The translations under genes and the position numbers were made by a program. A stretch of 64,000 nucleotides of DNA from a virus. The DNA lies in the IMG/VR virus record IMGVR_UViG_3300007765_000002, positions 1-64,000 of that record; one strand, given 5' to 3'. Below the pieces are notes generated by a model that worked only from the letters and a program-made list of their open reading frames with translations, had not been told where the DNA came from and did no database searches. The stretch's first letter is position 1. The number at the start of each line of letters is the position of its first letter. Below are positions 9,722-48,106 of the stretch, in pieces.

Positions 9722-10400
9722 CCAAATTATAATATTGAGCAACGCGTCTGTTCCATTCGTTAGCTGCGTTCTCAAACTCCTTGCCTTCGATAACAAACTC
9801 TTGATAATTTAAGTCTTTAGAGCACATTAACACAACCCCGGTTTTAATGTCTGTACCAAACATTTCATTGTGTGCTTGTGCGTATGCGGCTAACTGGCAA
9901 AAATAGTTGCTAATCCATTCTTTTTTCTTAGGTTTATTAGTTTGCTTAAAGTCAAGTATTGCTAAGTTACCTTTCCAAAGTCCTACACAATCTGTTGTGC
10001 CTGCGTATAATCCTTCATAGTATAGCGAGACTTCTGTACCATATATTTCGCTAACTTTCCTAAGTCCTTCGGCAATAATAACATTTGACATGTTGTATGC
10101 TTTTTGGTGTATGACATTACTGCCAACTTTGCGTTCATGGCTCTCAATATATAATTCTAAATTTTTATGCATTAGTGTGCCGACATTTGCGGCTTCTGTA
10201 CTAATTTGCTGTGCTTGCGTTTCGCCAACACGCTTTTTCCAGTTTGCTAATGCTTCTCTTTCTTGTTGGGATTTAGTCGCGTCTAATATAGTTGTAACGC
10301 TAGGAACTGCTGATCCATCAGGTAATTGATACTTGCGTTTTCTATCTATAGTCGTAACACGTTTTAATTCGTTGTAATCGTATTTTTCCAGTAATATCAT
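9714..10400 (-). CDS. RecB-family (PD-(D/E)XK) exonuclease
   Basis: 228 residues. Motifs in order: GTLMHKNLE (GxxxH) near 94, YAGTTDCVGLWKGNLAILDFKQTNK (D...DFK catalytic core) around 132-155 and YFCQLAAYAQA (QxxxY) near 165-175. This is the signature of the RecB/Cas4-like nuclease family, found in marine T4-like phages and likely used in DNA degradation or recombination. N-terminal part (DGSAVPSVTTIL) is also typical of the family. A consensus sigma70 promoter lies directly at its start, so it is probably early. Confidence 0.85.
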   Translation of the reverse strand: MILLEKYDYNELKRVTTIDRKRKYQLPDGSAVPSVTTILDATKSQQEREALANWKKRVGETQAQQISTEAANVGTLMHKNLELYIESHERKVGSNVIHQKAYNMSNVIIAEGLRKVSEIYGTEVSLYYEGLYAGTTDCVGLWKGNLAILDFKQTNKPKKKEWISNYFCQLAAYAQAHNEMFGTDIKTGVVLMCSKDLNYQEFVIEGKEFENAANEWNRRVAQYYNLDV

Positions 10401-12334: not shown

Positions 12335-12342
12335 TATTTATA
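12335..12342 (-). promoter_or_regulatory. T4-type late promoter (TATAAATA)
   Basis: Perfect TATAAATA 5 nt before the ATG of the 626-residue adhesin gene; no Shine-Dalgarno sequence between them. Confidence 0.7.
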
Positions 12343-12889
12343 ATAGTTTTAGTTTTGTAAGATACAACTGTAAATCTTTATCATTAACACCTTTAACAGT
12401 GCTAGCTGCCTTATGTAAAGCTACTCCAGAATTATCTCCTCGTTTTTTATATTGTATATAATACTTTGCCGCCAACTTATATGCCTTATTTTTTATTGCT
12501 GTCATTAGTTTACCTTCATCAAGTTCCAATTCAGCATATTTGTTATTCATTACCGCAGGCTTTAATTTAAACCCTGGGTCTGGTATAATTATTTCATATT
12601 TGTCTGTAGTTTTTGTTGATGTTTCTTTAGGCATACCATCTTTTTTTAATTGTTGAAAACTGTTTTTACTTAATTGTTTTACCCAATTTTTTTGTTTCTT
12701 ACCTTTGGGATTAGTCCAAATCAATTGAAATATTTTCTTTTTAGTAGCTCCAGCTCCCAGGCGATACTCTCTTTCTTCTCCTTCATCAAGTCCATGCCAT
12801 TCTTTAAATGTTTTAACACCCATTGCGTTTTGCACAGTTCTAAACAGTGTTAAAGCATCTTTACTATTAGCAAATTCGAAAAGTCTCAT
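12338..12889 (-). CDS. Conserved basic protein with leader-like N-terminus
   Basis: 183 residues. The start is placed at the ATG that overlaps the preceding stop (TAATG), not the longer reading 18 nt upstream. It begins MRLFEFANSK, similar to the short leaders found on many small proteins here. Residues ~50-85 are Lys-rich (GATKKKIFQLIW...KGKKQKNWVK) and the C-terminal half is helical and basic. No catalytic motif recognised. Possibly DNA-binding or an internal virion protein; this is inference from charge and leader only. Confidence 0.6.
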   Translation of the reverse strand: MRLFEFANSKDALTLFRTVQNAMGVKTFKEWHGLDEGEEREYRLGAGATKKKIFQLIWTNPKGKKQKNWVKQLSKNSFQQLKKDGMPKETSTKTTDKYEIIIPDPGFKLKPAVMNNKYAELELDEGKLMTAIKNKAYKLAAKYYIQYKKRGDNSGVALHKAASTVKGVNDKDLQLYLTKLKLL

Positions 12890-13254
12890 TACCAAGAAAT
12901 TTCCCAATAAAATGTATCATTTGTTGTGGTGTTTTTCTTTCTAACAATTGTGTACTTTTTATTGGTAAAATGACTCATTACTTCTGACATTTGTTCAGAT
13001 CGTAGTGTGCTTTCTGTATTACCTTTCCATACACTATAAAACGCTTCACCTGTTGCGTCATCATTTGTCATTGGGCTACCTGTAACTACTGTGCCATTAA
13101 TAGTAACTGTGGTTGTATCAGTTGCCGTTGTTGACAAAGCGTTACTAGCAACAGCGGCTAATACACGTAATTCTAGTATTAATATTTCTTGAGCAATTAA
13201 CTGATTATCTTGTCCGCGATCTCTTGCGTGGGATGCCGTTGGAAAATATGCCAT
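12889..13254 (-). CDS. Conserved small virion-type protein
   Basis: 121 residues. N-terminus MAYFPTASHARDRGQDNQLIAQEI, a Thr-rich middle and a C-terminal FYSVWKGNTES...FTNKKYTIVRKKN...FYWEISW ending. This overall pattern recalls a family common in marine T4-like phages that I know only as a conserved small protein, likely structural. Ribosome site AAGAGA before ATG. It is followed by a TAATG-coupled gene. Confidence 0.6.
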   Translation of the reverse strand: MAYFPTASHARDRGQDNQLIAQEILILELRVLAAVASNALSTTATDTTTVTINGTVVTGSPMTNDDATGEAFYSVWKGNTESTLRSEQMSEVMSHFTNKKYTIVRKKNTTTNDTFYWEISW

Positions 13255-13257
13255 AAT

Positions 13258-13638
13258 TTATGTTCTCTTCTTCAATGCTCTTTTAGCCATACTGTCAACT
13301 TTGTTTTGACTTGGCTCATCAATATTTGCTTCATCCGAAACATCTACTTCTAATTCTTCTTCTGTGTTTAATGTAATGAAATCTTTATCGAAGTTTTTAA
13401 TTAAATTTTGGACTCCGGGGTCCATATCATAAATTTGTTTAAAACCATCAAAATCTATAACATGCCCTAAGTTTCTCATAGTATGAACTAATTCTACAAA
13501 ACTTATTTCATTATCACCTATTTCTGCTGAATTATCTGCACTTTTAAGTTCGTGATTTAATACGGTAATCAACGCTTCGACCATGTCGTCGTCTACAGGT
13601 CCTTGCTCCGTCAAATTTAAAATTTCAGCAAATCGCAT
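13258..13638 (-). CDS. Acidic small protein with leader-like N-terminus
   Basis: 126 residues, mostly acidic and helical with a basic C-terminal end (MAKRALKKRT). N-terminus MRFAEILNLTE-Q ends in LTE, matching the L/I-x-E cleavage form of T4 prohead protease substrates. No function recognised. It follows the 382-residue gene by 1 nt, so the two are an expression unit. Confidence 0.6.
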   Translation of the reverse strand: MRFAEILNLTEQGPVDDDMVEALITVLNHELKSADNSAEIGDNEISFVELVHTMRNLGHVIDFDGFKQIYDMDPGVQNLIKNFDKDFITLNTEEELEVDVSDEANIDEPSQNKVDSMAKRALKKRT

Positions 13639-13639
13639 A

Positions 13640-14788
13640 TTACTCGCGCTCTTCTCTTCCTTCTGGCTCTTCTGCGCCAGCCGCTACATCAGCAGTTGAA
13701 AACTCTTCTTCACCTGGAATTTCTTCACCTGGAATTTCTTCAACATCAGCACCCATTTGCTCTACAGGTTGTTCTTCACCTGTAATGATTCTGCTTGCTT
13801 GTGCTAATGTTTCACGTCCTTGTCCATTTGTATCAACCAAATTGTCTAATGTAGGAAGGGCAATGTTAGCATATGCTTCGCTCATCTCGGAGCCTAATTC
13901 ATCACGCATTGCATCTAACAATGGTGGTAAATCTTCGTTGCGTAGTTTGCTTAAATCATCAACTGCTTTTTGTACTCTATCTACAACATCTTTAGATGCT
14001 AGTAGTAGTTCTGCTTGGTCTTCTTGACTTTCGTACAATGCGCGTAATCTTTCTGAAATCTCTACCTCTGTTGATTCTAAGCCAAGTTGTTTCTTTGCTC
14101 TTTTATCAATATTTTTTAGTAGTTGCACATTGGCCATGCCTGATCGCATAATGTCATCTAAAATATTAATTAGAGGAAGGAATGTTTTAACATATATAGC
14201 AGGAACAGACTTGCCATTCATAGCCATTTCAATAGCAGTTTTCGCTCGCACCATGTTTTGACCGCCAACTAGAATACGAAGTGCTTGCATACCTTTAGGA
14301 TCAAATGTATATCTGTCGTCTTTCTCTTTCTTTTCTGAAATTTCTTCTTCATTTACATCTTCCGGACAAGGTTTCTTTTTCTTCATCTTACCTGCCGCTT
14401 CTTTTACTTTTGCTTTCTTTTTGCCTGGTCTTGCTTTCTTTTTGCCTGGTCCTGCACCAAATCCAGCATCGGCAGTACTGCCTTGGTTTGGAATTTTTTC
14501 TGCATCTGCGGCCTTTTCATTTTCAGGACTAAATTCTAACAACTCTTCAATATGCTTTTCTAAATTTTCTTTAATAAAGATCTTTGCTAGATATGATTTT
14601 GAGTTATGCAAATTGTGCCTATCTTCTGATAAGCGTTGCTTTTTAATCTCTTCATTTACTGTTAGGAGTAATTTTTGTGTATGATCTAGGTCCAATTTAG
14701 TAATGTCTACCTTTACACCAAAGGCATTTTGGACACTATTGCTTAATTCTCCTGCTGTTTGTGTTGTATTTAAATCTGTTAAATTCAT
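13640..14788 (-). CDS. Unrecognised protein with Lys-rich linker and acidic tail
   Basis: 382 residues: a helical N-terminal domain (1-90), a low-complexity Gly/Lys linker (~105-145) containing two copies of ARPGKKKA-type sequence encoded by a duplicated ~18-bp segment, a helical core (~160-330) and an acidic tail with a duplicated EEIPG unit. The basic linker could contact nucleic acid and the acidic tail could mask it. No family named. A late-type AATAAATA element and TTTGGAAA precede the start. Confidence 0.6.
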   Translation of the reverse strand: MNLTDLNTTQTAGELSNSVQNAFGVKVDITKLDLDHTQKLLLTVNEEIKKQRLSEDRHNLHNSKSYLAKIFIKENLEKHIEELLEFSPENEKAADAEKIPNQGSTADAGFGAGPGKKKARPGKKKAKVKEAAGKMKKKKPCPEDVNEEEISEKKEKDDRYTFDPKGMQALRILVGGQNMVRAKTAIEMAMNGKSVPAIYVKTFLPLINILDDIMRSGMANVQLLKNIDKRAKKQLGLESTEVEISERLRALYESQEDQAELLLASKDVVDRVQKAVDDLSKLRNEDLPPLLDAMRDELGSEMSEAYANIALPTLDNLVDTNGQGRETLAQASRIITGEEQPVEQMGADVEEIPGEEIPGEEEFSTADVAAGAEEPEGREERE

Positions 14789-14827
14789 AATATGTTTCCA
14801 AATCTGTAATATAAAATAAGTTATTCG

Positions 14828-14835
14828 TATTTATT
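14828..14835 (-). promoter_or_regulatory. Probable late promoter (AATAAATA)
   Basis: One mismatch to TATAAATA, about 40 nt upstream of the 382-residue gene, in the short gap following the 159-residue gene. Confidence 0.45.
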
Positions 14836-15313
14836 AAAAAACGCAATTATAATATAGTTGCGTTAAGTTGTCTTTTGCCTCTTGGGCATTCCAAACGTAG
14901 GTTTTAACTCTAGATTCTATAAAATCTACTTTAAACCAATCGCTTTCTTCAGCATAATACTTAATTTTTTCTTTGGATATTAATAATTTTTCAACTGCAT
15001 TGCCATATTTTATATCGCTCTCGAGTACTTGCTTATATTTTACTTGATCACCATTATTATGAAAAACAGCCAGCATAATAGCAGCCTTTTTTGTGTATAT
15101 ATTTTTCTCGATAATTGAATAACCTTTGTTATATCCTTTCTTAAGAACATATCCATTTTGTGTTTTTCTAATTCGAATATCGCCTACTTTTATGCCTTTA
15201 TTAAGTTTTTTAATTTTTAAATAATGTAATCTTCCATGCTTTTCTAACTTCTCCATCATGTCGTCATACATGTCCGAAAAAGTCGCATCGATTTTTTTCT
15301 TAGATTGGTTCAT
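14834..15313 (-). CDS. Conserved hypothetical basic protein
   Basis: 159 residues, basic, predicted alpha/beta (RIRKTQNGYVLKKGYNKGYSIIEKN), no recognised catalytic motif. The start is preceded by a perfect 14-bp palindrome 10 nt upstream and has no clear ribosome site, so it may be controlled separately from its neighbours. Confidence 0.55.
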   Translation of the reverse strand: MNQSKKKIDATFSDMYDDMMEKLEKHGRLHYLKIKKLNKGIKVGDIRIRKTQNGYVLKKGYNKGYSIIEKNIYTKKAAIMLAVFHNNGDQVKYKQVLESDIKYGNAVEKLLISKEKIKYYAEESDWFKVDFIESRVKTYVWNAQEAKDNLTQLYYNCVF

Positions 15314-15323
15314 ACTAATATTT

Positions 15324-15337
15324 AACCGTATACGGTT
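15324..15337. promoter_or_regulatory. Perfect 14-bp palindrome, candidate operator
   Basis: AACCGTATACGGTT is its own reverse complement and stands out in AT-rich sequence. It lies 10 nt upstream of the 159-residue gene and just downstream of the lysozyme gene, a position suited to a dimeric repressor or an RNA hairpin. Confidence 0.45.
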
Positions 15338-15349
15338 GTTTAAAAAATA

Positions 15350-16186
15350 TTATTGGTCAGCAATCATGTTAACAATTGTTTTACCACGATTACCAACTTG
15401 ATTGTACCACTTACTATTTTGTAGTTCTTTTGCGGCAGTTTTCCAATCACCTTTTTCGGCCGCCGCGGAAAATTTTGGCCATGTCTTGTGCCAATTTGGA
15501 CCCATATTATAAGCCAAATCAACCATCGCTTGTTTGCGTCTTTGGTCCGCTAAATTATAACCAGGTGTTGTTCTTGCACCCTTTACATGATGCTCAAAGT
15601 CTTTGTCAAACATTTCGTCTGCTTGTTGGTCTGTAATGCCTTTGGAAAAGTCTTCGCCAGGCTTAACTAAGTGTCCATAACCAATTGTGTCCTTGCCAAC
15701 TGTGTCTTTATAAACTTTTAAGCGTTTGCCTTCGTGATGCTTAATCATACTCTTAAGAGCATTTACATCACCAAATTCTTTGTCATATGGATCTTGTTCG
15801 ATTGTTTGTGTTATTTGTGTTTTTGTTTGTAGATCAGGCTGTGGTGTATTTTGATCAATTGAATGTATGCCACTTGCCGCCAATGCTCCAGCGGCCGCAA
15901 CACTGGCCGCAGTTTTTTTGAGATCTTCGTTCAATATATCTTTATATAATGACACTTTTATTTGAGACTCATCTAGTTTAAAGTTGCGTATATACGCTAT
16001 CTTACCTTCAACTTTTACACGTTTAAGAATATCCTTCTTAACTAAGCCATCAGCAATCCACTGCTCATGCTCATTTAGATCTCTTTTAAATACTCTCTTA
16101 TCAGTGTATTTTAACAGATAATCACTCTCTTGTAAATTAACGTAAACTAAACTTACATTTGGATTCTGTATTTGTGCAAATCTCAT
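15350..16186 (-). CDS. T4-type lysozyme (GH24) with N-terminal extension
   Basis: 278 residues. The C-terminal ~145 residues are a phage lysozyme cleaving peptidoglycan: catalytic Glu in HHEGKRLKVYKDT, Asp in YKDT and Thr in DTIGYGHL give the E-D-T triad, and QRRKQAMVDLAYNMGP is the conserved helix. The N-terminal ~145 residues are not part of normal lysozymes: MRFAQIQNP start, a beta-rich region (to ~90), a small hydrophobic stretch SVAAAGALAASGI (~108-120) and a Gln/Thr linker. It may be a virion-carried lysozyme rather than the lysis enzyme. Ribosome site TAGGAA. Confidence 0.9.
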   Translation of the reverse strand: MRFAQIQNPNVSLVYVNLQESDYLLKYTDKRVFKRDLNEHEQWIADGLVKKDILKRVKVEGKIAYIRNFKLDESQIKVSLYKDILNEDLKKTAASVAAAGALAASGIHSIDQNTPQPDLQTKTQITQTIEQDPYDKEFGDVNALKSMIKHHEGKRLKVYKDTVGKDTIGYGHLVKPGEDFSKGITDQQADEMFDKDFEHHVKGARTTPGYNLADQRRKQAMVDLAYNMGPNWHKTWPKFSAAAEKGDWKTAAKELQNSKWYNQVGNRGKTIVNMIADQ

Positions 16187-16195
16187 TTCTTTTTC

Positions 16196-16648
16196 CTAAT
16201 TTATTTTGTTCAACTCATACTGCACCATGTCGCCTTGGTCTTCAACGTATGCGTTATAGCCTAACTGTCTAGCAAACTTTTGTACCATTCTAGAATAAAG
16301 GTTTGTTCTGCTTGGGTTGTCGCCTATATCTCCTTTTTCACCGGAAAAAAATATCATTTCGGGACTACGTTCTTTAATAAACTTTTTTATAGCGTGTAAA
16401 ACTGTAGCAAATATTTTATAAGCATCGCCTTCACCTGATACATCTTGACTATGATTTCTATGAAACTCTACTTGATATTCCCCGTTCCCTTCATGATTGA
16501 ACATAATAAGCAGTGGTGTGTCGTCAGGTAAGTTGGCAAATGCTCGCATGCCGCCATGGGGGCCCGGGCCCTGGAAGCCATCCGTTTCACCTGTCCATGA
16601 TAGAGGATAAGGTTGGTCAAATGTTTCAAACAGTTCTGCTATTTTCAT
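16196..16648 (-). CDS. Small protein with leader and GNAT-like C-terminus
   Basis: 150 residues. Leader MKIAELFE-T (L-F-E). The C-terminal part (ATVLHAIKKFIKERSPEMIFFSG...SRTNLYSRMVQKFARQLGY) is like a family common in marine T4-like phages with a partial acetyltransferase-like helix-strand-helix; no acetyl-CoA loop is visible. Ribosome site AAGGCGG lies inside the previous gene, and the two genes overlap by 4 nt. Confidence 0.6.
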   Translation of the reverse strand: MKIAELFETFDQPYPLSWTGETDGFQGPGPHGGMRAFANLPDDTPLLIMFNHEGNGEYQVEFHRNHSQDVSGEGDAYKIFATVLHAIKKFIKERSPEMIFFSGEKGDIGDNPSRTNLYSRMVQKFARQLGYNAYVEDQGDMVQYELNKIN

Positions 16649-17178
16649 TTCTTACCGCCTTTCATGTTAAAGTTCTCGCTTAGGTATTCGTCTAGAGCAT
16701 CTTCACCAGTTGGACTAATTGCCCAAGCACCATCGCCACCATAAATTAAACCTGAGCCATCTAGTTCATCATATAATCTGCTCATAGCAGGTGTAAGACT
16801 GTGTGAATCTTCTTCAAAGTCCATACCTAATTCGTCTGCTGTGGCTATTGCTTTTAACAATAGCATGCCGCCGTGTCCTTTATTACGAAACTCTGGGAAT
16901 ATTTCTGCAAAGTTACGCACATTATCTTCGTTGCGTGTATGTGTATATTGTCCTGCGTGTTTACCGTCTACGTATAAATCTACAGTAAAACCATTTTTTT
17001 GTTTGGTTACGCGAAACTGCTTACCGTCAACAAAGCTTTCGTTTGTAAGTAATTTTGGCTTTCCGCTACCAAGTCCTAACTTTTTAACATTAGCATATTC
17101 GCTTCCAATTGGAGCGTCTTTTGTGGCATTTTGTTTTGTAATAATGCCTACTGCTTCAGTTAATTCTGCAATTTTCAT
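16645..17178 (-). CDS. GNAT-like acetyltransferase with leader
   Basis: 177 residues. Leader MKIAELTE-A, nearly identical to T4 capsid-targeting sequences in its L-x-E-A end. Residues ~90-150 show GNAT motif A (EIFPEFRNKGHGGMLLLKAI, compare R/Q-x-x-G-x-G/A) and a later AMSRLYDELDGSGLIY like motif B. Substrate unknown; a packaged acetyltransferase that modifies host protein on entry is a speculation. TATAAATA lies 4 nt before ATG with no ribosome site. Confidence 0.65.
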   Translation of the reverse strand: MKIAELTEAVGIITKQNATKDAPIGSEYANVKKLGLGSGKPKLLTNESFVDGKQFRVTKQKNGFTVDLYVDGKHAGQYTHTRNEDNVRNFAEIFPEFRNKGHGGMLLLKAIATADELGMDFEEDSHSLTPAMSRLYDELDGSGLIYGGDGAWAISPTGEDALDEYLSENFNMKGGKK

Positions 17179-17182
17179 ACTG

Positions 17183-17190
17183 TATTTATA
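17183..17190 (-). promoter_or_regulatory. T4-type late promoter (TATAAATA)
   Basis: Perfect TATAAATA, 4 nt (ACTG on the plus strand) before the ATG of the GNAT-like gene. It is the tightest promoter-to-start spacing in the window. Confidence 0.7.
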
Positions 17191-17776
17191 GGTTATTGTT
17201 AGCTAACCAAGCAGTATATATACTCCGATAATAACTTTCTATCTCAATAACATCTAACAACTTTCCATTAACTATATCTTCTAGTTTAATAATATTATCA
17301 GTGTGCTGTTTAATTAGGTGAGAGAAATGTATATACATTTCTGCATATTGTTTTATAGTTGTAGCGTCACATACTTGGGTCATTTCTTCCCACGTGTGGG
17401 GGCGATGTAACTGTTTAAATCGCTCTGCGGCCCACATTGCTATGTCAAAGTCATCGACAGTAATACCTATGAAGTCGTGTTTTCGTTCAATATGGTAGGC
17501 CAAATCATGACTTGGAATACTACCATAATATTTTGCAATTTCTATTAGGTAATGATCTTTCTCACTATTATTTTTAAATAAATGGGGTTTTTTAAGTCTA
17601 CTACGATCTTTTGATAACCTGATTCTATTAGAATCAGACCTGATTCTATTAGAATCAGACCTGATATCAGACCTGATTCTATTCTTATTAATTTTGCCAT
17701 TGCATGAATCATATAGCATAGTAATAAGATCACCGCATGATCCGCCCATGTAAACTATAAGGAATAAGTCTTTCAT
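17186..17776 (-). CDS. GG-loop (sulfotransferase/P-loop-like) phage protein with repeat insertion
   Basis: 196 residues from the ATG giving MKDLFLIVYMGGSCGDLIT. The strand followed by a GG/SCGD loop resembles the nucleotide-binding start of sulfotransferase-like P-loop proteins, and the end (IIKLEDIVNG) matches its relative at 55.9-56.6 kb (CIEYENIINS). Residues ~37-55 are a 7-residue repeat (SDSNRIR type) produced by an expanded 21-bp DNA repeat. The core IPSHDLAYHIERKHDFIGIT belongs to a family I know only from marine phages. Chemistry unknown. It overlaps the upstream small gene by 47 nt. Confidence 0.6.
   Translation of the reverse strand: MKDLFLIVYMGGSCGDLITMLYDSCNGKINKNRIRSDIRSDSNRIRSDSNRIRLSKDRSRLKKPHLFKNNSEKDHYLIEIAKYYGSIPSHDLAYHIERKHDFIGITVDDFDIAMWAAERFKQLHRPHTWEEMTQVCDATTIKQYAEMYIHFSHLIKQHTDNIIKLEDIVNGKLLDVIEIESYYRSIYTAWLANNNL
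17619..17684. repeat. Tandem 21-bp palindromic repeat inside a gene
   Basis: Unit CTGATTCTATTAGAATCAGAC occurs at 17619-17639 and 17640-17660, followed by a shortened copy (CTGATATCAGAC) and a partial one. Inside each unit CTGATTCTA-T-TAGAATCAG is a perfect inverted repeat. The 21-bp period keeps the reading frame. It can form stacked hairpins and is a likely site of copy-number change. Confidence 0.9.
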
Positions 17777-17912
17777 TAATTGATTTATGATTGGGTGTGG
17801 CGTTTTGTTTTGTAACGAGTTCTGCTTTACCTTTACTATACTGCTCGTCATACCATTTACGTAAATTTTCTAGAATACGTAAATCTTCTGTAAGTAATTC
17901 GTTTATTAACAT
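17730..17912 (-). CDS. Leader-bearing 60-residue protein
   Basis: Begins MLINELLTE-D (L-T-E) followed by a helical, charged stretch and GKAELVTKQNATPNHKS. The VTKQNAT segment also occurs in the GNAT-like protein (ITKQNATKD), so this linker is shared. Real because of the leader, its close fit after the 168-residue gene and the late-type AATAAATA upstream. No function recognised. Confidence 0.5.
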   Translation of the reverse strand: MLINELLTEDLRILENLRKWYDEQYSKGKAELVTKQNATPNHKSINERLIPYSLHGRIMR

Positions 17913-17921
17913 TATTTTTTC

Positions 17922-18428
17922 TTATTTATTGGTCAGACTAACACTTTCTACATTTAATGAAATATCACGTCTATCTAATTTATTAATTTCTCTAGACTTT
18001 TCTCCGATTCCTCTTTCTTGTGCAAAACTAATCTTGGGCGTGCCATCTTGGTTGACGTCATCAATATAATAATTTGCTATGAGAAACTCCTTGGTACTGG
18101 GATTGTCCGCACTAGGATCTTGTGTCGCGACTACGCGAGAAGGACTTTTAGATACTACAAACCAAAGCTCTGCCACGTCTGTTAATTTTGGTATTACCGT
18201 AAACTGTTGGCCCGGCACCATACCGCGCACTATTTGTTTTTGTTCCGCTTCCGACTTTTTCTTCATTAAAGTGGGGCCATTGGGATTATCTAGATCAATA
18301 CGTTTATCTCTAAGATCTATACTAGTCTCTGTACTATCACCCGCATTAGAAGCCAGCGGCAAGGTTGTGCCTCGAACAGGTCCAGAAATTTGATATACTG
18401 CTTCTGTAAATAATTCTTCTAGCTTCAT
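17922..18428 (-). CDS. Leader-bearing conserved protein
   Basis: 168 residues. Leader MKLEELFTE-AVYQ; F-T-E followed by Ala is the closest match in the window to T4 internal-protein leaders. The rest is polar alpha/beta (PGQQFTVIPKLTDVAELWFVV) with no family recognised. It overlaps the preceding basic gene by 4 nt. Confidence 0.6.
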   Translation of the reverse strand: MKLEELFTEAVYQISGPVRGTTLPLASNAGDSTETSIDLRDKRIDLDNPNGPTLMKKKSEAEQKQIVRGMVPGQQFTVIPKLTDVAELWFVVSKSPSRVVATQDPSADNPSTKEFLIANYYIDDVNQDGTPKISFAQERGIGEKSREINKLDRRDISLNVESVSLTNK

Positions 18429-18706
18429 TTGGAGGCCTTATTTAACCGTTGTTTCATAATGCTTGCCGGATTAGTTCTTTTTGTTCTAGCAGATTTTCTC
18501 GCAATTCTTGCTCCTAACTTTGCTTTAGTCATACGTAATTTAAAACGCTTTTTGATATCTGGAGCCGCAAAACATTGGGCAGGTTTGGACACAATGCGTC
18601 CTTTTCTTCTGCCGCCGGTGCAACGATACTTTCGAACTAATTTATTTCCTTGGCGTTGCCATGCCATTTTTGTTTCGTTTATGCCAAAGAGTTCTTCTAA
18701 ATACAT
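18425..18706 (-). CDS. Very basic leader-bearing protein, probable DNA-binding internal protein
   Basis: 93 residues. Leader MYLEELFGINE-T (I-N-E), then about one third Lys/Arg: WQRQGNKLVRKYRC, GGRRKGRIV, and two Cys around a GGRRKGR turn. Charge and size are like T4 internal proteins IPI-IPIII or a histone-like protein. It probably binds DNA inside the head; no enzyme motif. The ATG overlaps the upstream stop (TAATG). Confidence 0.65.
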   Translation of the reverse strand: MYLEELFGINETKMAWQRQGNKLVRKYRCTGGRRKGRIVSKPAQCFAAPDIKKRFKLRMTKAKLGARIARKSARTKRTNPASIMKQRLNKASK

Positions 18707-19935
18707 TATAATGTATTTAGTAATTTTGCTACGTCTTTTTCAATTACACTGTAAGATACGTTAGCAAGAACAAAACTAAAAAAATCACCATTATGGGCGC
18801 TGTCTCTTGCAAGAAGTTTAAGATGCATATTTGGAAGTTTGCAGTTAGAGTCAACGCCTTCAAAATAATCGTCGTATAATCCGCTAGTTATACCTTTATA
18901 TATTTTCACCATTGCTTTTTTTAAATTTCTAGAATCATACCCAATAACATTTTTTTGTGTTTTAATTACTAAGTAATCCATCATAGCCTCTTCTTGGGCA
19001 ATGACATTTATAAACGATCTGTTGTCTTTGTCTAAAACATATTCTCGTGTATTAATAAATTTAAGGTAATACATTAAATTCCGTATACCAGACGAACAGG
19101 TATACGCCTTGCATAATTCAGTAAATAACCCATTAAACTGTTGAAAATTAGCAAAGGAATAAAATATTATATTGTTATATTCACACAAATCACGAACTAT
19201 CGAAAAATTCTTACAAAAGTTTTGATATCGTGTTTGTATATCAAGACTACCGGTGTTTGCGTAATCTATAACAGCCCTGTTGTAAATTGCTAAAAATTCT
19301 TCACCCGGCACCAATGTGTATGTGCCGTGTTCAATTACATTTTCAAATAAATCAATAAATTCAGAATTTATTGATAGTAACGAATTGATTCCTATATCAT
19401 ACCTTCTCCAGGCCGGAGGTACCCACAGCACAATATTTGGTTTTATAATATCAATTAATTGATATAATTGTACTGTATTTAAATCTGAACTAGCACCAGG
19501 TGTACCAAGGTTAAAAACTTCAACGTCATTGGTATTAAATTGAGCAGATATTAATTTTTTGAGTTGTTCTGCCCAAGTGCTACTATCGTCTATTCCTAAA
19601 CCAAATGCGTGACTGCATCCAATGGTTACTATTTTTAATTTTGCATCTGAATTAAAGCTAGGACCGCGATATCCGTGTGCATTTAAGGTATACTTGACTG
19701 TTTTGCCTTTCCAATACGGATTTATTATTTTTTTATCGTACTCAAAAAAATCAAACTCATAAGTTCGTGAAGGATTTAATATATAATTATTATAAATCTC
19801 ATAACCGTATATATTATTTGGACCTGAAAAGTCTTCACCTTCTGGAAATAACGGCGGTTTAGATAAAGCTGATAATTCAGGATCCCAAAATCCCTTCGTC
19901 CACTTTGAAGTGCTACGATATTCTTCGTAATTCAT
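18706..19935 (-). CDS. SGNH/GDSL-hydrolase-like protein
   Basis: 409 residues. Block I at ~103-112 (VTIGCSHAFGLG, nucleophile Ser in GCSH), block II near FNLGTPGASSDL, block III-like IVLWVPPAWRR and a C-terminal ARDSAHNGDFF giving the D-x-x-H pair. These are the four conserved SGNH blocks, so an esterase or deacetylase-like activity is likely. The ~100 N-terminal residues are Tyr/Asn-rich. Such proteins in marine phages have been guessed to act on glycans; target unknown. A related, less complete protein lies at 54.2-55.0 kb. Confidence 0.7.
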   Translation of the reverse strand: MNYEEYRSTSKWTKGFWDPELSALSKPPLFPEGEDFSGPNNIYGYEIYNNYILNPSRTYEFDFFEYDKKIINPYWKGKTVKYTLNAHGYRGPSFNSDAKLKIVTIGCSHAFGLGIDDSSTWAEQLKKLISAQFNTNDVEVFNLGTPGASSDLNTVQLYQLIDIIKPNIVLWVPPAWRRYDIGINSLLSINSEFIDLFENVIEHGTYTLVPGEEFLAIYNRAVIDYANTGSLDIQTRYQNFCKNFSIVRDLCEYNNIIFYSFANFQQFNGLFTELCKAYTCSSGIRNLMYYLKFINTREYVLDKDNRSFINVIAQEEAMMDYLVIKTQKNVIGYDSRNLKKAMVKIYKGITSGLYDDYFEGVDSNCKLPNMHLKLLARDSAHNGDFFSFVLANVSYSVIEKDVAKLLNTL

Positions 19936-19947
19936 ATACGATACTTA

Positions 19948-20196
19948 TTATTGAATGGTTAATAGATAGATCAATGCTGAAAATAGTGCGGTGATAATGG
20001 AGCCACTAAGGACCCACATAGATTTGTATTTGTTTTTTTCTTGGACTAGCAAGTTATGCCTAATCTCATCGAGTTGCTGTTCAATGACAGTCAAACGACT
20101 TTCGATTCGTTCCATATTCTCCTCCAGGTACCCGTATCTCTCTGAGCAAATCTCAACGTGTGCCTCAAGGCTCTGCCTTTCAATTTCTGATGGCAT
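19948..20196 (-). CDS. Coiled-coil protein with C-terminal membrane anchor (XhlA/holin-like)
   Basis: 82 residues: an acidic coiled coil (residues ~10-50, ENMERIESRLTVIEQQLDEI) followed by one transmembrane segment at ~60-80 (MWVLSGSIITALFSALIYLL). The layout resembles XhlA-type proteins that help lysis, but lacks a second helix, so a holin function is uncertain. Ribosome site TAGGAG before ATG. The 127-base gap upstream holds only a weak 29-codon reading frame. Confidence 0.65.
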   Translation of the reverse strand: MPSEIERQSLEAHVEICSERYGYLEENMERIESRLTVIEQQLDEIRHNLLVQEKNKYKSMWVLSGSIITALFSALIYLLTIQ

Positions 20197-20323
20197 AACA
20201 ACTCCTAAAATGTGTAATAATGCCTACCGCCCGCCCTGTATTATATGTGCCTTTTATATGCCTCTTCATTTCGCCTAAAATGAGCCTAAGTCTTTGCCTA
20301 GTACTGTATTTACTCAAAAATTT

Positions 20324-20875
20324 CTAGAAATTAACTAATAGTTTATCGGAGGAAGTAATATAAATGTTTTTAATTTTAGGGTTTAAAGCATTCCAAACGG
20401 GGGTTTTTATTTTAGCAGTTTCTGTTAAATTTAAAATAACTGGAACGTTTGTTAGATCTTTCATTAATCCAGATGCAGGTATGGCTTCTTCGCCTCGCTC
20501 TAGATATAATCCAGGTTGTTCAACAGTAAAGGAAGTAGTCCAAAAAACATGTTTTCCTTTAAATGAAGATCCAAAATTTAAAGCTTTGATGTCGTCTACT
20601 GAATATTTTTGGGGTTTTTCGATATACATAGGATTGCCGCGTAAACTAATAGTTTGAATTAAAGTTTCTAAATTACTTTGTTGTCCTCTACTTTTATTCC
20701 AAGACTTTTCATTATTAACCAATTGATTAATGTCATCTACAAAAGCAGGGGCGTCAGGTCTGTATTGTGCTACAAGGCCAGTTTGTGATATATCAATTAA
20801 AGTATGTATTGTCAAAAACTCACCAACACCTGAACCAAATCTGCCGCCGGCGGCTAATCCTTTTTCTCTTGCCAT
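20324..20875 (-). CDS. Conserved virion-type protein, function unknown
   Basis: 183 residues, Gly-rich N-terminus (AREKGLAAGGRFGSGVGEF), beta-rich C-terminus. No family recognised. It lies in its own unit beyond the terminator of the 20.98-21.35 kb gene, among two strongly expressed small structural genes. AT-rich upstream sequence has several TATAAT/TAAATA-like motifs, none convincing. Confidence 0.5.
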   Translation of the reverse strand: MAREKGLAAGGRFGSGVGEFLTIHTLIDISQTGLVAQYRPDAPAFVDDINQLVNNEKSWNKSRGQQSNLETLIQTISLRGNPMYIEKPQKYSVDDIKALNFGSSFKGKHVFWTTSFTVEQPGLYLERGEEAIPASGLMKDLTNVPVILNLTETAKIKTPVWNALNPKIKNIYITSSDKLLVNF

Positions 20876-20933
20876 TTGTATACCTATAATATGCTACTAT
20901 TATATTTAGTATAGATTATTTAGCCAAATAAAA

Positions 20934-20955
20934 AGCGGAATGTTACCATTCCGCT
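20934..20955 (-). terminator. Strong intrinsic terminator
   Basis: AGCGGAATG-GTAA-CATTCCGCT hairpin on the minus strand, perfect 9-bp stem, followed by TTTTATTT. It lies 24 nt past the stop of the 123-residue gene. The opposite strand also has a T run, so it may act in both directions. Confidence 0.9.
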
Positions 20956-20978
20956 GTTTTATTATATAATATATTAAA

Positions 20979-21350
20979 TTATAGAACGTATGTTTTTGCT
21001 GTTACTGTTGCTGATGCAAAGTTTACAGAATCAACTGTACCCAAAGCAATTAAAACATCTTCTAAGTGAGCGGCCAATGTTTCACTGGCTGAGCCATCAT
21101 ATGTGTCTGTACCGTATTCACCCTCGACACAAACTGAAATATTGTTGTCTGCACTATGTAGTGCGCCAATAATTACAATGTTAAAGCCTGCGCCTTGAAT
21201 TGCATCCATGGCGGCTGCTACTGCTGATGTTGGGCCTAGCTTTCCTGAAACATCTGCGCCAAAATCAATATCTAAGTGTGCTAATGTTTTACCTAGAAAA
21301 TTGGTGCTAAGACCAAATGATGCAGGTACTGTTCTTGTTACTGAAGCCAT
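20979..21350 (-). CDS. Small Ala/Gly-rich protein, probable decoration or tail protein
   Basis: 123 residues, Ala/Val/Gly/Asp-rich and compact (AVAAAMDAIQGAGFNIVIIG). No family recognised. It forms a single-gene unit with a perfect late promoter 31 nt upstream, a TAGGAGA ribosome site and its own strong terminator, which suggests an abundant late structural protein. It shares this layout and a short alanine-rich helix-strand pattern with the next upstream gene, possibly a distant duplicate. Confidence 0.65.
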   Translation of the reverse strand: MASVTRTVPASFGLSTNFLGKTLAHLDIDFGADVSGKLGPTSAVAAAMDAIQGAGFNIVIIGALHSADNNISVCVEGEYGTDTYDGSASETLAAHLEDVLIALGTVDSVNFASATVTAKTYVL

Positions 21351-21381
21351 TTTAAATCTCCTAATCTAGCGTTGTTATCTT

Positions 21382-21389
21382 TATTTATA
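21382..21389 (-). promoter_or_regulatory. T4-type late promoter (TATAAATA)
   Basis: Perfect TATAAATA in the classical position, with a 31-nt gap to ATG containing TAGGAGA, in contrast to the leaderless class. Confidence 0.85.
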
Positions 21390-21410
21390 TACAAAAATAC
21401 AAAATAAAAA

Positions 21411-21432
21411 AGCGGGATATTTCTATCCCGCT
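21411..21432 (-). terminator. Strong intrinsic terminator
   Basis: Hairpin AGCGGGATA-GAAA-TATCCCGCT on the minus strand, 9-bp perfect stem with a GAAA tetraloop, followed by TTTTTATTTT. It ends the 109-residue gene and insulates the next promoter. Confidence 0.9.
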
Positions 21433-21488
21433 TTTCTTGGAATCATTTGTTTCTAGCAATGCTAAAAACTGTGATTTTACGCTAATAA

Positions 21489-21818
21489 TTAAGCTAAGCT
21501 AACACCTGTGATTGTTTTGACACTTAGTGTTTGTGCGGCAATTGCGTCTAGACGTGCTTCTAGTGCTGTCCATACTGCGCCTGAACCGGCTGCAATGTGA
21601 GCGTGTGCGCCTGAAAGACCTACTACGAAGCCAGCGGCTGTAACTGTGCCTACGAACTCAACTGTACCGTGCTGTGCAATTGCTTCTAGTGCTAGTTGTG
21701 CATCTGTATCTGTTGTAAAGTCGCCACCTGTTGAACATACCCATGTAATGTCACGAACACCTGCGTACTCTGAATTATCTTGTGCTGTTGAATAAGCTGG
21801 ATTTGTATAACCTGCCAT
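21489..21818 (-). CDS. Small Ala/Gly-rich protein, probable structural paralogue
   Basis: 109 residues, similar in composition to the neighbour (LALEAIAQHGTVEFVGTV, AGFVVGLSGAHAHIAAGSGAVW). No family recognised. It has a perfect late promoter, TAGGAGA ribosome site and a dedicated terminator. Monocistronic late expression suggests a high-copy virion protein, for example head decoration; this is inference. Confidence 0.65.
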   Translation of the reverse strand: MAGYTNPAYSTAQDNSEYAGVRDITWVCSTGGDFTTDTDAQLALEAIAQHGTVEFVGTVTAAGFVVGLSGAHAHIAAGSGAVWTALEARLDAIAAQTLSVKTITGVSLA

Positions 21819-21871
21819 TTTTCTAATCTCCTATATCTTGTAATGTATAGATTTCTCTATACCGTTAATAT

Positions 21872-21879
21872 TATTTATA
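21872..21879 (-). promoter_or_regulatory. T4-type late promoter (TATAAATA)
   Basis: Perfect TATAAATA 53 nt upstream of the 109-residue gene; the leader contains an imperfect inverted repeat (TATAGAGAAATCTATA) and TAGGAGA. Confidence 0.85.
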
Positions 21880-21918
21880 TCTAATTAGAAAAAATAAACT
21901 ACGCTATTTCATTGCATA

Positions 21919-22617
21919 TTATTTATTGGCTAGCCACTTTCCTATTCCTTTGCCTACCACATAACCACCGGCTGTCGCTAGTGCAATTTTTGCTGGTGTA
22001 CTAATGCCTGTTTTTTCTGGATCTTTAGCACTTTTATCTTCATATCCACCCTTACGCATAAATCCTTCATATGGGCCGCGTAAATCACTTTTAGGTGTTT
22101 TGGCCCTCAATGCCTGTAACAATCTAGTAGTACCTTGCTTGCGCTCAGTACCATATAATCTATTCCAATCACTTAACAATCTTCTTACAGCACTATACTG
22201 CCCATTTCTAATACCTAAATTACGCTCTAAACTCATTAAAAATTGTTTGTCGAAGTTCGGATTAGCCTTACCTTGTGCCACATCTCTGAGATACCTTTTA
22301 AATTGTAATAAAGGCATACTTGCCCTACCAACTGGGCCAATTTGATTTGCGTATCTTTCTGGATTACTAAAAACAGCTACCCAGTTGTGTAAATCTGTTG
22401 CTGTTGATCTAATATTACTGAAATCTTGATATTGCAAAGTTTTTCTAGCATATTCTGATGCCTGCGCGGCTGTGCTGGGATCAAATCGCATTGCCTGCAA
22501 TGATAATACCGTCAAGTAAATACTTTCTGCCACTTGTTCAGCACTAAGATTCAAACCACGCTGGGTGCGTAGTGCTCGTGCTTCTGTTAAATCTTTAATA
22601 AAACCCATCAACCCCAC
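21919..22617 (-). CDS. Leader-bearing helical protein
   Basis: 232 residues, mostly helical and basic, with a Gly/Ala hydrophobic C-terminus (IALATAGGYVVGKGIGKW). The N-terminus reads MGLMGFIKDLTE-AR; the internal Met gives MGFIKDLTE-A, which matches the capsid-targeting form. AGGAG with 8-nt spacing favours the first Met. Function unknown; possibly an internal head protein. It starts inside the end of the previous gene. Confidence 0.55.
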   Translation of the reverse strand: MGLMGFIKDLTEARALRTQRGLNLSAEQVAESIYLTVLSLQAMRFDPSTAAQASEYARKTLQYQDFSNIRSTATDLHNWVAVFSNPERYANQIGPVGRASMPLLQFKRYLRDVAQGKANPNFDKQFLMSLERNLGIRNGQYSAVRRLLSDWNRLYGTERKQGTTRLLQALRAKTPKSDLRGPYEGFMRKGGYEDKSAKDPEKTGISTPAKIALATAGGYVVGKGIGKWLANK

Positions 22618-23951
22618 TCCTTTTGACTTAAAAAGTTTCTTCTTGAAAACTCCATTCTATCTACTAATTTTACGGCATTACCTATTCTATCAATTGCTAC
22701 AAAACCCTCGGGGTCTGCTACCTCGTAGCCGCCATCTGTTTTATAAAATGTTCCAATACCTTCTACTTTGTTTAATTTGTTTACTAAGATCATTTTAATC
22801 TGTACGATTTGTTTATATATGCCAAGTATTGCTAATAATGTATTACTGTTATCTTCGATAAACTGTTTGTTTGCTTCTATTTTTTGTACACGCGCCTGTC
22901 CTGCAGGCCCTTCAATACCAGTTTTTAGTTTATCAATTTCGGCTTGCATACGATCATCATAATAGTTAATAAAGTCTTGCAAGAAATTTGTAGCATTGGA
23001 TACTTGTCCTTCTCCTTGGCGAATCTTTTCGTTAATAAAGATGGGAATATATTTCATAAACTCTTCATTTTTCAACATTGTGTTGAATTTTGAGGCATTT
23101 GTTTTAGATAAAATATCACTCATCTTCTCAACACCGCGCCTTACAGAATCTGTTTCTCTTGCAGTTAATGTAGCAACGCCTGTTAAATCTTTATACGTAG
23201 CATCATCCATCCAAACTTTTTTGTTACCTTCTGGTGCTATTACACCATATTGTGTTTGCATGTCACTAATCTCAGGCCCGCCAGTATATTGCGTATGCCA
23301 TACTATACCAAAGTCTGCGGCCAGTAATTGCTGTGCTAATTCACTGCCGACAGGGACAGCATATGTAATTTCTTGTGGTCTAAAAGCAATATATTTTTCC
23401 CCTTCAATAGTTACTGTTTTTAAATCACCTTTAGCAAACATAAAGTCGCCATGCAGTATGCCATCAAAGTTTAATTTTGGCAATTCTTTTAAAGCCATCT
23501 TAAACTTATTACGCAGGCCTGCTCTTGTCTTACCTTTTTCTAAACCAGCATCAGAATGGTTCTTGTCAATATCTTTAGGTGTTTTGTTTAATTTAGGATT
23601 TTTATTAAAAAAGCCGTGCTTTGTTGCTACAAAAAACTTACCGTCCTTTGGATCAGTGCCAGCAACAATAGCAGGAGCACCATCCCACTTAGTTGTTATT
23701 TTGGTACGTTTGCCTCCGTGTCCGGAAAGCATACCAGCAACGTTGGCCAAATAGTTTAATGCTTGTTTAGCGCCTTTGTATCCTTGCGTAAATACCAAGT
23801 CTTCAAGGTGTGTCATATGTGTGCGGTCTTCTTTTTCAAAAAGCCATTTAGATTCGTTAATAAGATTTCCTTCGCGGTCTTTGCGTGGTGCACGGTCCTT
23901 GCGACGTTTTGCTCTTGCTGGTCGTTCTTCGTGTAGATCAGATATCTTCAT
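22608..23951 (-). CDS. Large conserved protein with ligase-like KxDG motif
   Basis: 447 residues from MKISDLHEERP; the Met three codons earlier is less likely. A very basic segment follows (RAKRRKDRAPRKDR). Around residue 90, TKWDGAPAIVAG resembles motif I of nucleotidyltransferases/ATP-dependent ligases (KxDG), with FFVATKHGFFNK and FDGILHGDFMF (compare motif III, DGE) in the right order. Motifs IV-V are not clear. I recall it as a conserved uncharacterised family of T4-like marine phages. Nucleotidyl transfer is a hypothesis; the N-terminal leader may make it virion-associated. Confidence 0.55.
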   Translation of the reverse strand: MKISDLHEERPARAKRRKDRAPRKDREGNLINESKWLFEKEDRTHMTHLEDLVFTQGYKGAKQALNYLANVAGMLSGHGGKRTKITTKWDGAPAIVAGTDPKDGKFFVATKHGFFNKNPKLNKTPKDIDKNHSDAGLEKGKTRAGLRNKFKMALKELPKLNFDGILHGDFMFAKGDLKTVTIEGEKYIAFRPQEITYAVPVGSELAQQLLAADFGIVWHTQYTGGPEISDMQTQYGVIAPEGNKKVWMDDATYKDLTGVATLTARETDSVRRGVEKMSDILSKTNASKFNTMLKNEEFMKYIPIFINEKIRQGEGQVSNATNFLQDFINYYDDRMQAEIDKLKTGIEGPAGQARVQKIEANKQFIEDNSNTLLAILGIYKQIVQIKMILVNKLNKVEGIGTFYKTDGGYEVADPEGFVAIDRIGNAVKLVDRMEFSRRNFLSQKEWG

Positions 23952-24183
23952 TATTAACAATATCCAATAATTCTGTTATAGCATCACTAAAACGTTTTTT
24001 AGTTGCTTCATCAACATCGTCCCAATCTATTTTAATCCAATCATCTACAACGTTTTCTAATTCGCCGGACATTTGATCTACAATACCACTTGTTTTACCT
24101 GGTGGGAATCTTTTATAACGTGGGGGCGGCCGCCTAGTTAAAACTTTTGAGTCTACGTACGGCGATATTTCACTCAGTTTCAC
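23938..24183 (-). CDS. Small acidic protein, probable GTG start
   Basis: 81 residues from GTG giving MKLSEISPYVDSKV; this start overlaps the previous stop and matches the MKLSEI/MKISDL leader style. A longer upstream start would lie deep in the previous gene. Arg/Pro-rich RRPPPRYKRFPPGK then an acidic helical C-terminus. No function recognised. Confidence 0.5.
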   Translation of the reverse strand: MKLSEISPYVDSKVLTRRPPPRYKRFPPGKTSGIVDQMSGELENVVDDWIKIDWDDVDEATKKRFSDAITELLDIVNNEDI

Positions 24184-24424
24184 TGTCGCCCGCCTTGCGA
24201 ATACTACGCACAAATTTTTTATTATCTTGTCCGCGTATACTATTAAGAAGTCGTCTTTCTAGTTCAGAAGCAGTAGCATGGTCATAGTTTTCATAAATAT
24301 TATTAATAAGATTTACTGCACTGTCAATGATATGTATAGCGCGACTTTCAATAATCGCACTCTTATTTTTCTCGCTATATAGAGAATTCAATTCTTCAAG
24401 TATAGTTCTAGTTTTACGTTTCAT
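24170..24424 (-). CDS. Small helical protein
   Basis: 84 residues from MKRKTRTILEELNSLY. Mostly helical and charged, with no recognised motif. It shares a 14-nt overlap with the following GTG-start gene. Function unknown. Confidence 0.5.
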   Translation of the reverse strand: MKRKTRTILEELNSLYSEKNKSAIIESRAIHIIDSAVNLINNIYENYDHATASELERRLLNSIRGQDNKKFVRSIRKAGDSETE

Positions 24425-47305: not shown

Positions 47306-48106
47306 TTAACCTGATAGTCCCAGGGCATCATTCGGATTCGCAAGGAGTTCTTTGGCTTTTTCTACTTCGGATTTTCTTTTACTTTTTGTACTAGTGGAGT
47401 CACTGCCTGAGTTGTTTTTATCTTGATACCAATTATAGATATCCCAAACATCCCAACCTAATGCAGCCGCGTTAGTTGCCCAGGAGAGAAATCCGCCACC
47501 AAGTAATGTTGCGGCCGCGTGCCTTGCGGCTATTTTTGATGCGATATTGGCTGCTTTCTTTTTTGCTGGTTTGACCTTTTCAGGATCGAATTTATTGTCA
47601 GGATATTTCTTGTTCCAGTCTTTAACGTTATCATCAACGTTGGCTTGGGCTCGCTTCGCAGCATCGGCCTGGGCGGCAGTTATACTGCCTCTTGTTCGTA
47701 GCTTGTTTGATTTAGCATTCTGTCCAACTTCAGATCCTATGGCTTTTGCATTAAGTTTTGCTTTTTTTAATACCCCGCGCTTGGTTCTCGGAGTCGTTTT
47801 GTTTACCAATTGGGCTCTTTTCTGATTCAATGCATGGCCCGCTGCTCGGCGCATTTTATTTGCAGCTCTATAAGCCAACACGGCACTAGTGGCCGCCGGC
47901 ATGCCCCCTGGCACATTGGCAAGGATGCCTGACTCATCTTCTCCTTCTCCTTCTCCTGACCTTTTTTCTGGGTGAAGATGAAATGGATTTGTTTCTACTA
48001 ATATGAATGATTCAAAAACATAATCGCCTATATCTTCAGGCGTGAGTTTATTAAGAACTTCTAACATTTTTGTATCATTATCATTAAAAAGTTCTTCTAA
48101 AAGCAT
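47306..48106 (-). CDS. Ala/Lys-rich leader-bearing protein
   Basis: 266 residues. Begins MLLEELFNDNDTK; then an acidic Gly patch, an Ala-rich helix region (NMRRAAGH type) and a long Lys/Ala helix (~95-190) followed by FLSWATNAAALGWDVWDIYNWY, a semi-hydrophobic segment. Composition suits an internal head or DNA-binding protein, but no family is known. It ends close to the gp32 promoter. Confidence 0.5.
   Translation of the reverse strand: MLLEELFNDNDTKMLEVLNKLTPEDIGDYVFESFILVETNPFHLHPEKRSGEGEGEDESGILANVPGGMPAATSAVLAYRAANKMRRAAGHALNQKRAQLVNKTTPRTKRGVLKKAKLNAKAIGSEVGQNAKSNKLRTRGSITAAQADAAKRAQANVDDNVKDWNKKYPDNKFDPEKVKPAKKKAANIASKIAARHAAATLLGGGFLSWATNAAALGWDVWDIYNWYQDKNNSGSDSTSTKSKRKSEVEKAKELLANPNDALGLSG

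Follow-up and report, generated by a model that had tools for sequence, protein, structure and literature searches.

Unrelated, partly enzymatic proteins of a marine T4-like phage carry leaders that resemble T4 capsid-targeting sequences

Why do many phage proteins with unrelated bodies begin with the same short peptide? The question is raised by a 64,000-base window (the whole stretch of DNA analysed here, bases 1–64,000 of the 84,622-base IMG/VR virus record IMGVR_UViG_3300007765_000002), where leaders of the type M-K/R-hydrophobic-x-E/D-hydrophobic recur, most of them in one block near gp41. T4 offers a precedent. Its internal proteins IPI, IPII and IPIII and its protein Alt carry a capsid-targeting sequence (CTS), a leader of 10–20 residues on otherwise unrelated bodies that is cut off after L/I-x-E by the protease gp21 (available parts of PMC9026906 and PMC5694885). 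The N terminus of T4 ipI reads MKTFKEF. We consider it very probable that the window encodes T4-type CTS leaders on an enlarged, partly enzymatic set of head proteins, for which cleavage, head location and injection are predicted. More than ten unrelated proteins bear the same short, probably removable tag, most likely for loading into the head along with the DNA and delivery at infection.

The window belongs to a truncated record of a marine T4-like phage. By our own naming, partly backed by homology, it encodes T4-type gp17, gp18, gp19, UvsX, gp32, gp41, gp61 and UvsW, and its terminase places the Pseudomonas jumbo phage PA5oct and its kin nearest among named phages (53% identity). The 84,622-base record stops within the capsid gene gp23 and so lacks gp20–gp22. 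The same phage is also represented by a longer contig (G003; 201,690 bases, 99.9% identical across the entire window, in reverse orientation), which supplies the absent head module, comprising the portal, a gp67-position gene, a gp68-like gene, gp21, gp22 and gp23, named from position and homology. The longest related contig (G007) has 322,647 bases.

All leaders named in the original prediction exist: ten on the minus strand of 12338–24183, and three more at 31708–33333 (plus strand), 47306–48106 and 52153–52755. The member list was nevertheless incomplete, having left out 13640–14788, 15350–16186, the gp67-position gene of G003 and, immediately to the left of the window, three genes that start MKILDIIKE-N, MRIDEF and MKITDILQE-S. 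The genes concerned are given below; a slash marks a predicted cut.

12338–12889, minus: 183-residue protein with the MRLFEFANSK leader form; isoelectric point (pI) 9.8, no family found, no G007 orthologue
12889–13254, minus: 121-residue protein of the same block, without leader; homologue of PA5oct EST35_0239 (E = 4e-8)
13258–13638, minus: 126-residue protein, MRFAEILNLTE/Q; G007 counterpart MRVSELLFKE/E
13640–14788, minus: 382-residue protein with an MNLTDL leader form; PHROG 14154, virion structural protein
15350–16186, minus: lysozyme (Pfam Phage_lysozyme) with the long leader MRFAQIQNP...VNLQE/S; in G007 MRFAHIAG...INLVE/S
16196–16648, minus: 150-residue DUF6934-like protein (Pfam PF22028), MKIAELFE/T
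16645–17178, minus: 177-residue protein, MKIAELTE/A; possible GNAT acetyltransferase (PF00583, E = 0.031, below the curated cut-off)
17730–17912, minus: doubtful gene, a 60-residue open reading frame, MLINELLTE/D; overlaps 17186–17851 in a different frame
17922–18428, minus: 168-residue protein, MKLEELFTE/A; G007 counterpart MKLVELFLAITE/G
18425–18706, minus: 93-residue very basic protein (pI 11.7), MYLEELFGINE/T; leader-end Glu in 11 of 11 distinct orthologues counted
21919–22608, minus: 229-residue basic protein (pI 10.1), MGFIKDLTE/A; in G007 MGFIKDLYE/S
22608–23951, minus: RNA-ligase-like DUF6267 protein (PF19782, phrog_455) with a long leader starting MKISDLHEE; likely cut after E39
23938–24183, minus: 81-residue protein with the MKLSEI leader form and a GTG start; in G007 MRLNEISDF
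24170–24424, minus: 84-residue protein with the weak leader MKRKTRTILEEL; PHROG 11854, virion structural
31708–33333, plus: 541-residue protein, MRFNEFKLFE/A; in G007 MKYHEFLIE/A, distant (E = 1.7e-4)
47306–48106, minus: 266-residue protein with an MLLEELF leader form, between 48108 and gp32; no G007 orthologue
52153–52755, minus: 200-residue protein, MKSLKQYITE/A; PHROG 14802, virion structural protein
52802–53293, minus: presumed small terminase, by position only; look-alike N terminus MTKKLEELFDL
72900–73139 of G003: 79-residue gp67-position gene of the head module, MILLELF

Leader-like N termini exceed chance. We built a seven-residue profile from twelve leaders of the window and used 2954 internal Met sites as background. 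At a score of at least 4 it recovered 19 of 218 N termini in G003, 12 of them training genes, which leaves 7 new ones where 0.8 were expected. In G007 it recovered 22 of 416 against 1.5 expected; 7 of these belonged to orthologues of training genes and 15 did not. A looser, hand-made core pattern, applied to genes of at least 60 residues, gave 37 of 209 against 14.4 in G003 and 59 of 391 against 28.5 in G007. The bodies behind the leaders are unrelated, as had been claimed: compared from residue 21 onwards, the twelve long leader proteins (the 60-residue reading frame left out) gave no pairwise similarity at E < 0.01. A stricter T4-type pattern hardly rose above shuffled sequences (4 in G003, shuffle maximum 4; 8 in G007, maximum 7), which counts against a T4-type signal, as do look-alike N termini on 52802, on 3 of 22 UvsX proteins and on gene 29999.

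The leaders come in two forms. In the short one the targeting helix leads directly into the cut, as in MKLEELFTE/A, whereas in the long one a start such as MKLFEI is set apart from it (MKLFEIRQTPPRWLILE/G); we infer for the long leader a two-part anatomy, with the targeting helix and the cut at separate places. The proposed cut sites fared unevenly. L/I-x-E is found in most members, but some cuts were misplaced, and the MRLFEFANSK protein (no L-x-E directly after the leader) and the MKLSEI protein have no L/I/F-x-E directly behind theirs. That several members lack an adjacent cut motif weighs against our reading. In 22608–23951 the likely cut is not after HEE but at KWLFE39/K40, to which the leader-end Glu of an alignment of 46 proteins corresponds. 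As for MLINELLTE-D, the N terminus is present, but it is the weakest member, because its reading frame overlaps another and has no G007 orthologue, and among the loci compared it matched only identical copies and, weakly, one other sequence (E = 0.11). This last match pairs its C terminus with 21688–21777 of locus L064 of phage CBB, in a gene annotated as ribonucleotide reductase, and may be chance or a gene remnant.

How widely the leader occurs was assessed in 80 viral-contig loci centred on and chosen for DUF6267, with a pattern derived from the T4 leader. It matched 103 of 1112 N termini, whereas 200 shuffles gave 6.0 on average and never more than 13, and internal Met sites predicted 3.8. 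DUF6267 accounts for 40 of the 103 because the loci were selected for it; without it, 63 of 1033 remained, against 5.3 by shuffling (maximum 12). The 103 matches fall into 37 body groups, some of which are look-alikes. This applies at a minimum to the three UvsX matches, and probably also to a set of eight proteins about 90 residues long (MAYDLSKILAEY). The leader was expected to be rarer on cytoplasmic enzymes, which held for gp41 (0 of 52), gp61 (0 of 12) and UvsW (0 of 2) but not for UvsX (3 of 22). In Melnitz, HTVC008M, DLP_6 and S-CRM01, too, genes of the block behind gp41 bear leaders, and a few do so in P-HM2. Relatives of the basic protein at 18425–18706 are encoded by 213 stretches of viral contigs. 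Its Glu count comes from 50 called proteins in 80 loci of this family, reduced to 24 distinct ones and then to 11; the 13 dropped lacked [KR]MxW or RCT[SG]GRRK, and one search pattern included the Glu itself.

Ala follows the leader-end Glu, a position left free in the pattern, in 30 of 103 leaders compared with 26 of 296 internal copies (P = 1.7e-6). This excess rests mainly on DUF6267, which tells against a general cleavage preference: without DUF6267, UvsX and the group of about 90 residues it was 9 of 55 (P = 0.09), and as independent evidence the Ala preference is weakened accordingly.

DUF6267 relatives are found in at least 596 viral-contig stretches; a single-sequence scan with the 22608 protein gave 7 loci, 95–100% identical. 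For an alignment we combined the window protein with 45 of the 64 locus proteins; these were chosen by hand with a view to spread and length, and the leader played no part in the choice. Glu ends the leader in 42 of these 46 proteins, and Leu or Ile stands two residues earlier in 43. All six Leu codons are used for the motif Leu, and on this ground an explanation of the leaders at the RNA level was rejected. As annotated, the orthologues of P-HM2, S-CRM01 and S-SM1 have no leader; the leader is thus an add-on to a conserved body.

These counts bear on whether N termini of this kind are simply common among small phage proteins, owing to an easy translation start, a short helix, a degron or shared regulation, with no role in packaging. 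Such an explanation would account for the leader-like starts of UvsX, 29999 and the presumed small terminase, and for the lack of enrichment among CBB virion proteins described below. It is at odds with the retention of the leader-end Glu and the preceding Leu/Ile over 46 DUF6267 proteins despite synonymous codon change, with the excess that persists outside DUF6267, and with two virion datasets that tie in with the leaders. We regard it as highly improbable.

A packaging tag of the T4 kind calls for a matching protease, and a gp21 homologue was indeed found. Of 9 related contigs, 8 carry PF03420, the T4 gp21 family. One of the 8 is G003, in which the protease gene adjoins the capsid gene; the 84,622-base record gave no match, which is uninformative because it ends within gp23. 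The gp21 of this phage is 28% identical to that of T4 and shares its conserved blocks. In an alignment of capsid sequences, Y-L-T-E/A of this phage lies opposite F-L-T-E/A at T4 residue 65, and this phage, T4, PA5oct and CBB all keep the Leu and Glu of the T4 cut site. The T4 capsid propeptide has 65 residues (available part of PMC5694885).

One G007 leader, MRLKELQIKE, is followed by AATAGATASGNIA, thirteen residues identical to those after the predicted cut in its capsid protein, which we count in favour of the T4-type reading. Such a junction is also what one would expect if leaders had spread by recombination or duplication and were now remnants, functional on few proteins only. Orthologues that gain and lose leaders point the same way, as do two leader proteins left of the window with related bodies (the adjacent MKILDII and MRIDEF proteins at 160963–162414 of G003, whose repetitive bodies are similar at E = 6e-8; a duplication within the leader block is likely). 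Remnants fit poorly with what is preserved between the contigs. G007 has a match for 16 of 22 queries, with the leader still recognisable by eye in most, and in seven G003/G007 leader pairs 11 of the 42 residues in common show a silent codon change. We therefore think it very unlikely that the leaders are mostly remnants.

Virion mass spectrometry (MS) of relatives links homologues of several of these proteins to the particle. In PA5oct, 93 genes are noted 'ESI-MS/MS' in the sequence record, from which we took the labels; the 327 other genes used as background are our own gene calls of at least 60 residues. A leader score of at least 4 was reached by 9 of the 93 MS-noted genes and 5 of the 327 others (P = 0.0007), and cut-offs of 3, 5 and 6 gave 10 and 8, 7 and 4, and 5 and 3. 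At E < 0.01, PA5oct has homologues of two of the twelve genes used for training, 52153 (EST35_0202) and 16196 (EST35_0349, MHLFELFD, E = 6e-12), and both homologues are MS-noted. The same is true of homologues of the weaker-leader genes 13640 (EST35_0237, MFLKDVKITES) and 15350 (the lysozyme EST35_0173, a domain-level match at E = 4e-5), and of the gp67-position gene, which in PA5oct starts MKINDIITE/G. By gene order only, 13258–13638 and 23938–24183 occupy the positions of the MS-noted EST35_0238 (MKIKDILVES) and EST35_0230 (MRLDEIQSK). EST35_0239, the homologue of the leaderless 12889–13254, also bears the note. Between terL and gp32, where 47306–48106 lies, PA5oct has an MS-noted leader gene as well (EST35_0205, MKLFEVFTLYED), though the two sit on opposite sides of 48108 and its homologue.

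For CBB, the virion table as available lists 55 proteins (Table 4, PMC5259590), among them homologues of 52153 (CBB_210, 13 peptides, 60.5% coverage), 24170 (CBB_292) and 13640 (CBB_298). A third case is the cytidylyltransferase T4-GC190 of S-SM1, which was detected in purified virions according to the available text of PMC3037559; its N terminus in the sequence record is MKKFSAFLNE/A. Packaging of homologues is thus supported by published or deposited virion mass spectrometry.

Several results from the same data weigh against a packaging role. Over all PA5oct genes the profile score did not separate MS-noted genes from others (area under the curve 0.50), because most virion proteins have no leader. 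In CBB, to the extent of its available table, the core pattern was found in 1 of 55 virion proteins against 56 of 520 others, below expectation (P = 0.03), and a profile score of at least 4 in 1 of 55 against 8 of 520, without enrichment. The stricter T4 pattern was not significantly enriched in PA5oct (3 of 93 against 3 of 327, P = 0.13) or CBB (2 of 55 against 4 of 520, P = 0.10), and the background gene calls of both phages may include false genes. The gp67-position homologue is absent from the available CBB table, the 24170 homologue has no MS note in PA5oct, and the homologues of 52802 are MS-detected in neither phage, for CBB by the same table, although the N terminus is leader-like. The expectation that virion proteomics would reveal the leader proteins was borne out for the homologues of 52153, 16196 and 13640 in PA5oct and of 52153, 24170 and 13640 in CBB, but not as an enrichment in CBB.

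Mass spectrometry of whole virions does not tell head from tail, and the 15350 lysozyme matches tail-lysozyme families as well. The leader might therefore target the tail or baseplate, or its bearers might be structural parts of the particle that are not injected. Here the leader itself is informative: its last residues are the L-x-E signal that is also conserved where the capsid protein is cut, and it stands on the gp67-position gene of the head module as well (MILLELF here, the MS-noted MKINDIITE/G in PA5oct). Both in this phage and in PA5oct, sheath, tube and annotated baseplate proteins have no such start. A tail or purely structural role appears unlikely.

What, then, would be carried? 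In the window, the leader bodies include a phage lysozyme, a DUF6934 protein, a possible GNAT protein (below the cut-off) and very basic small proteins. In other phages they include a cytidylyltransferase with DUF5824, a zeta-toxin/AAA-type kinase and a HAD-like protein (Pfam match below the cut-off; DIDDTLF recognised by eye). DUF6267, listed in Pfam (PF19782) as of unknown function, looks like an RNA-ligase-type nucleotidyltransferase on the basis of invariant motifs and weak fold matches. K88, D90, G91, E415, G416, V418 and K428 are invariant in the 46 sequences, and we take the K-x-D-G, E-G-x-V and later K positions to be the nucleotidyltransferase motifs of ATP-dependent RNA/DNA ligases. 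An AlphaFold model had a mean predicted local distance difference test (pLDDT) score of 81.8, with most of the leader below 50 and of low confidence. In VIA-align, RNA and DNA ligases were among the best rows for this model, with RNA editing ligase 1 (Z = 6.1, root-mean-square deviation 5.2, 193 aligned) and T4 Rnl2 (Z = 5.4, 4.9, 167 aligned) foremost, but the matches were weak and close to unrelated rows. Foldseek found no match to the model in the PDB at E ≤ 0.001, and the DUF6267 profile found nothing meaningful among PDB sequences (best E = 0.38). The top rows from a viral structure library were mainly DUF6267-like phage proteins. One of its matches, A0A0M6VVW4 of S-PM2, is named for a cytidyltransferase-like domain, which hints at a fusion of the neighbouring DUF6267 and cytidylyltransferase.

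Some further genes were noted in passing. Within the leader block, 18706–19935 (409 residues) has a weak match to NonGDSL lipase-like proteins (E = 0.012, below the cut-off); it begins MNYEEY and its G007 orthologue MKFDEL. Proteins with CxxxCxxC that look radical-SAM-like by eye lie at 8282–9775, 27422–29164, 30379–31692, 53298–54251 and 55035–55922, among structural and replication genes. At 4720–33287 of G003 (loci L031 and L032), beside the tail region, there is a run of genes that resemble sugar-modifying and CxxxCxxC enzymes, judged from their N termini only.

The mechanism is known from T4; the scale and the enzyme cargo are the new part. Unlike the T4 internal proteins, the leader proteins here number more than ten, are mostly clustered near gp41, include enzymes and come with two kinds of leader, the additional one being longer and having its cut at a distance from the targeting helix. 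The idea that T4-like phages recruit a variety of proteins by means of the leader has been published before (PMC9026906, in its available part). The inner-head or ejection proteins of phiKZ, 201phi2-1 and SPN3US are likewise many, packaged and cut after Glu by a gp21-like protease, but in the available accounts their propeptides are much longer (several exceed 100 residues in SPN3US) and the motif in phiKZ is S/A-x-E. P1 DarA and DdrB and the polyvalent or defence proteins of other phages are enzymes predicted or shown to be carried in the head; these are large and multidomain, and the available text of PMC5512222 mentions no such leader. A further parallel is S-SM1, where T4-GC190, with the same leader, and a neighbouring DUF6267 gene form a block after gp41, as here; the available text of PMC3037559 describes T4-GC190 as a virion protein and mentions no leader or targeting. 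Among the literature matches listed, titles and abstract openings included none on such leaders in marine or jumbo T4-like phages or on the enzymes described here, and a search for DUF6267 by name found no paper.

On the model we favour, the amphipathic N-terminal peptide would dock a newly made protein on the scaffold core of the prohead. Once the shell closes, a gp21-family protease would cut at L/I/F-x-E, a signal of the type that also releases the capsid propeptide, and the bodies would remain inside the head, together with the DNA. When the DNA is ejected, they would probably pass into the next host in finished form; candidates include the RNA-ligase-like DUF6267 protein, the lysozyme, the possible acetyltransferase and the small, very basic proteins. 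A bolder proposal, which we hold only tentatively and think more probably wrong than right, is that many ocean T4-like phages inject a head-carried enzyme kit of RNA-ligase-like DUF6267, cytidylyltransferase, HAD-like phosphatase and zeta-toxin/AAA kinase-like protein, each CTS-tagged. Such a kit could mend nucleic acids that host defences have cut, ahead of any phage gene expression.

The T4 leader is a well-studied packaging tag, known from a handful of proteins, and similar predicted tags stand on enzymes in many uncultured phages. If the tag marks tens of families in marine T4-like phages, proteins of unknown function that travel in the head could be read from sequence, and families without a function, such as DUF6267, would gain a testable role. 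The leaders would also be a source of varied natural tags for loading proteins into capsids. On the same condition, infection of ocean bacteria would, in its first minutes, involve enzymes brought in with the particle and not newly expressed genes.

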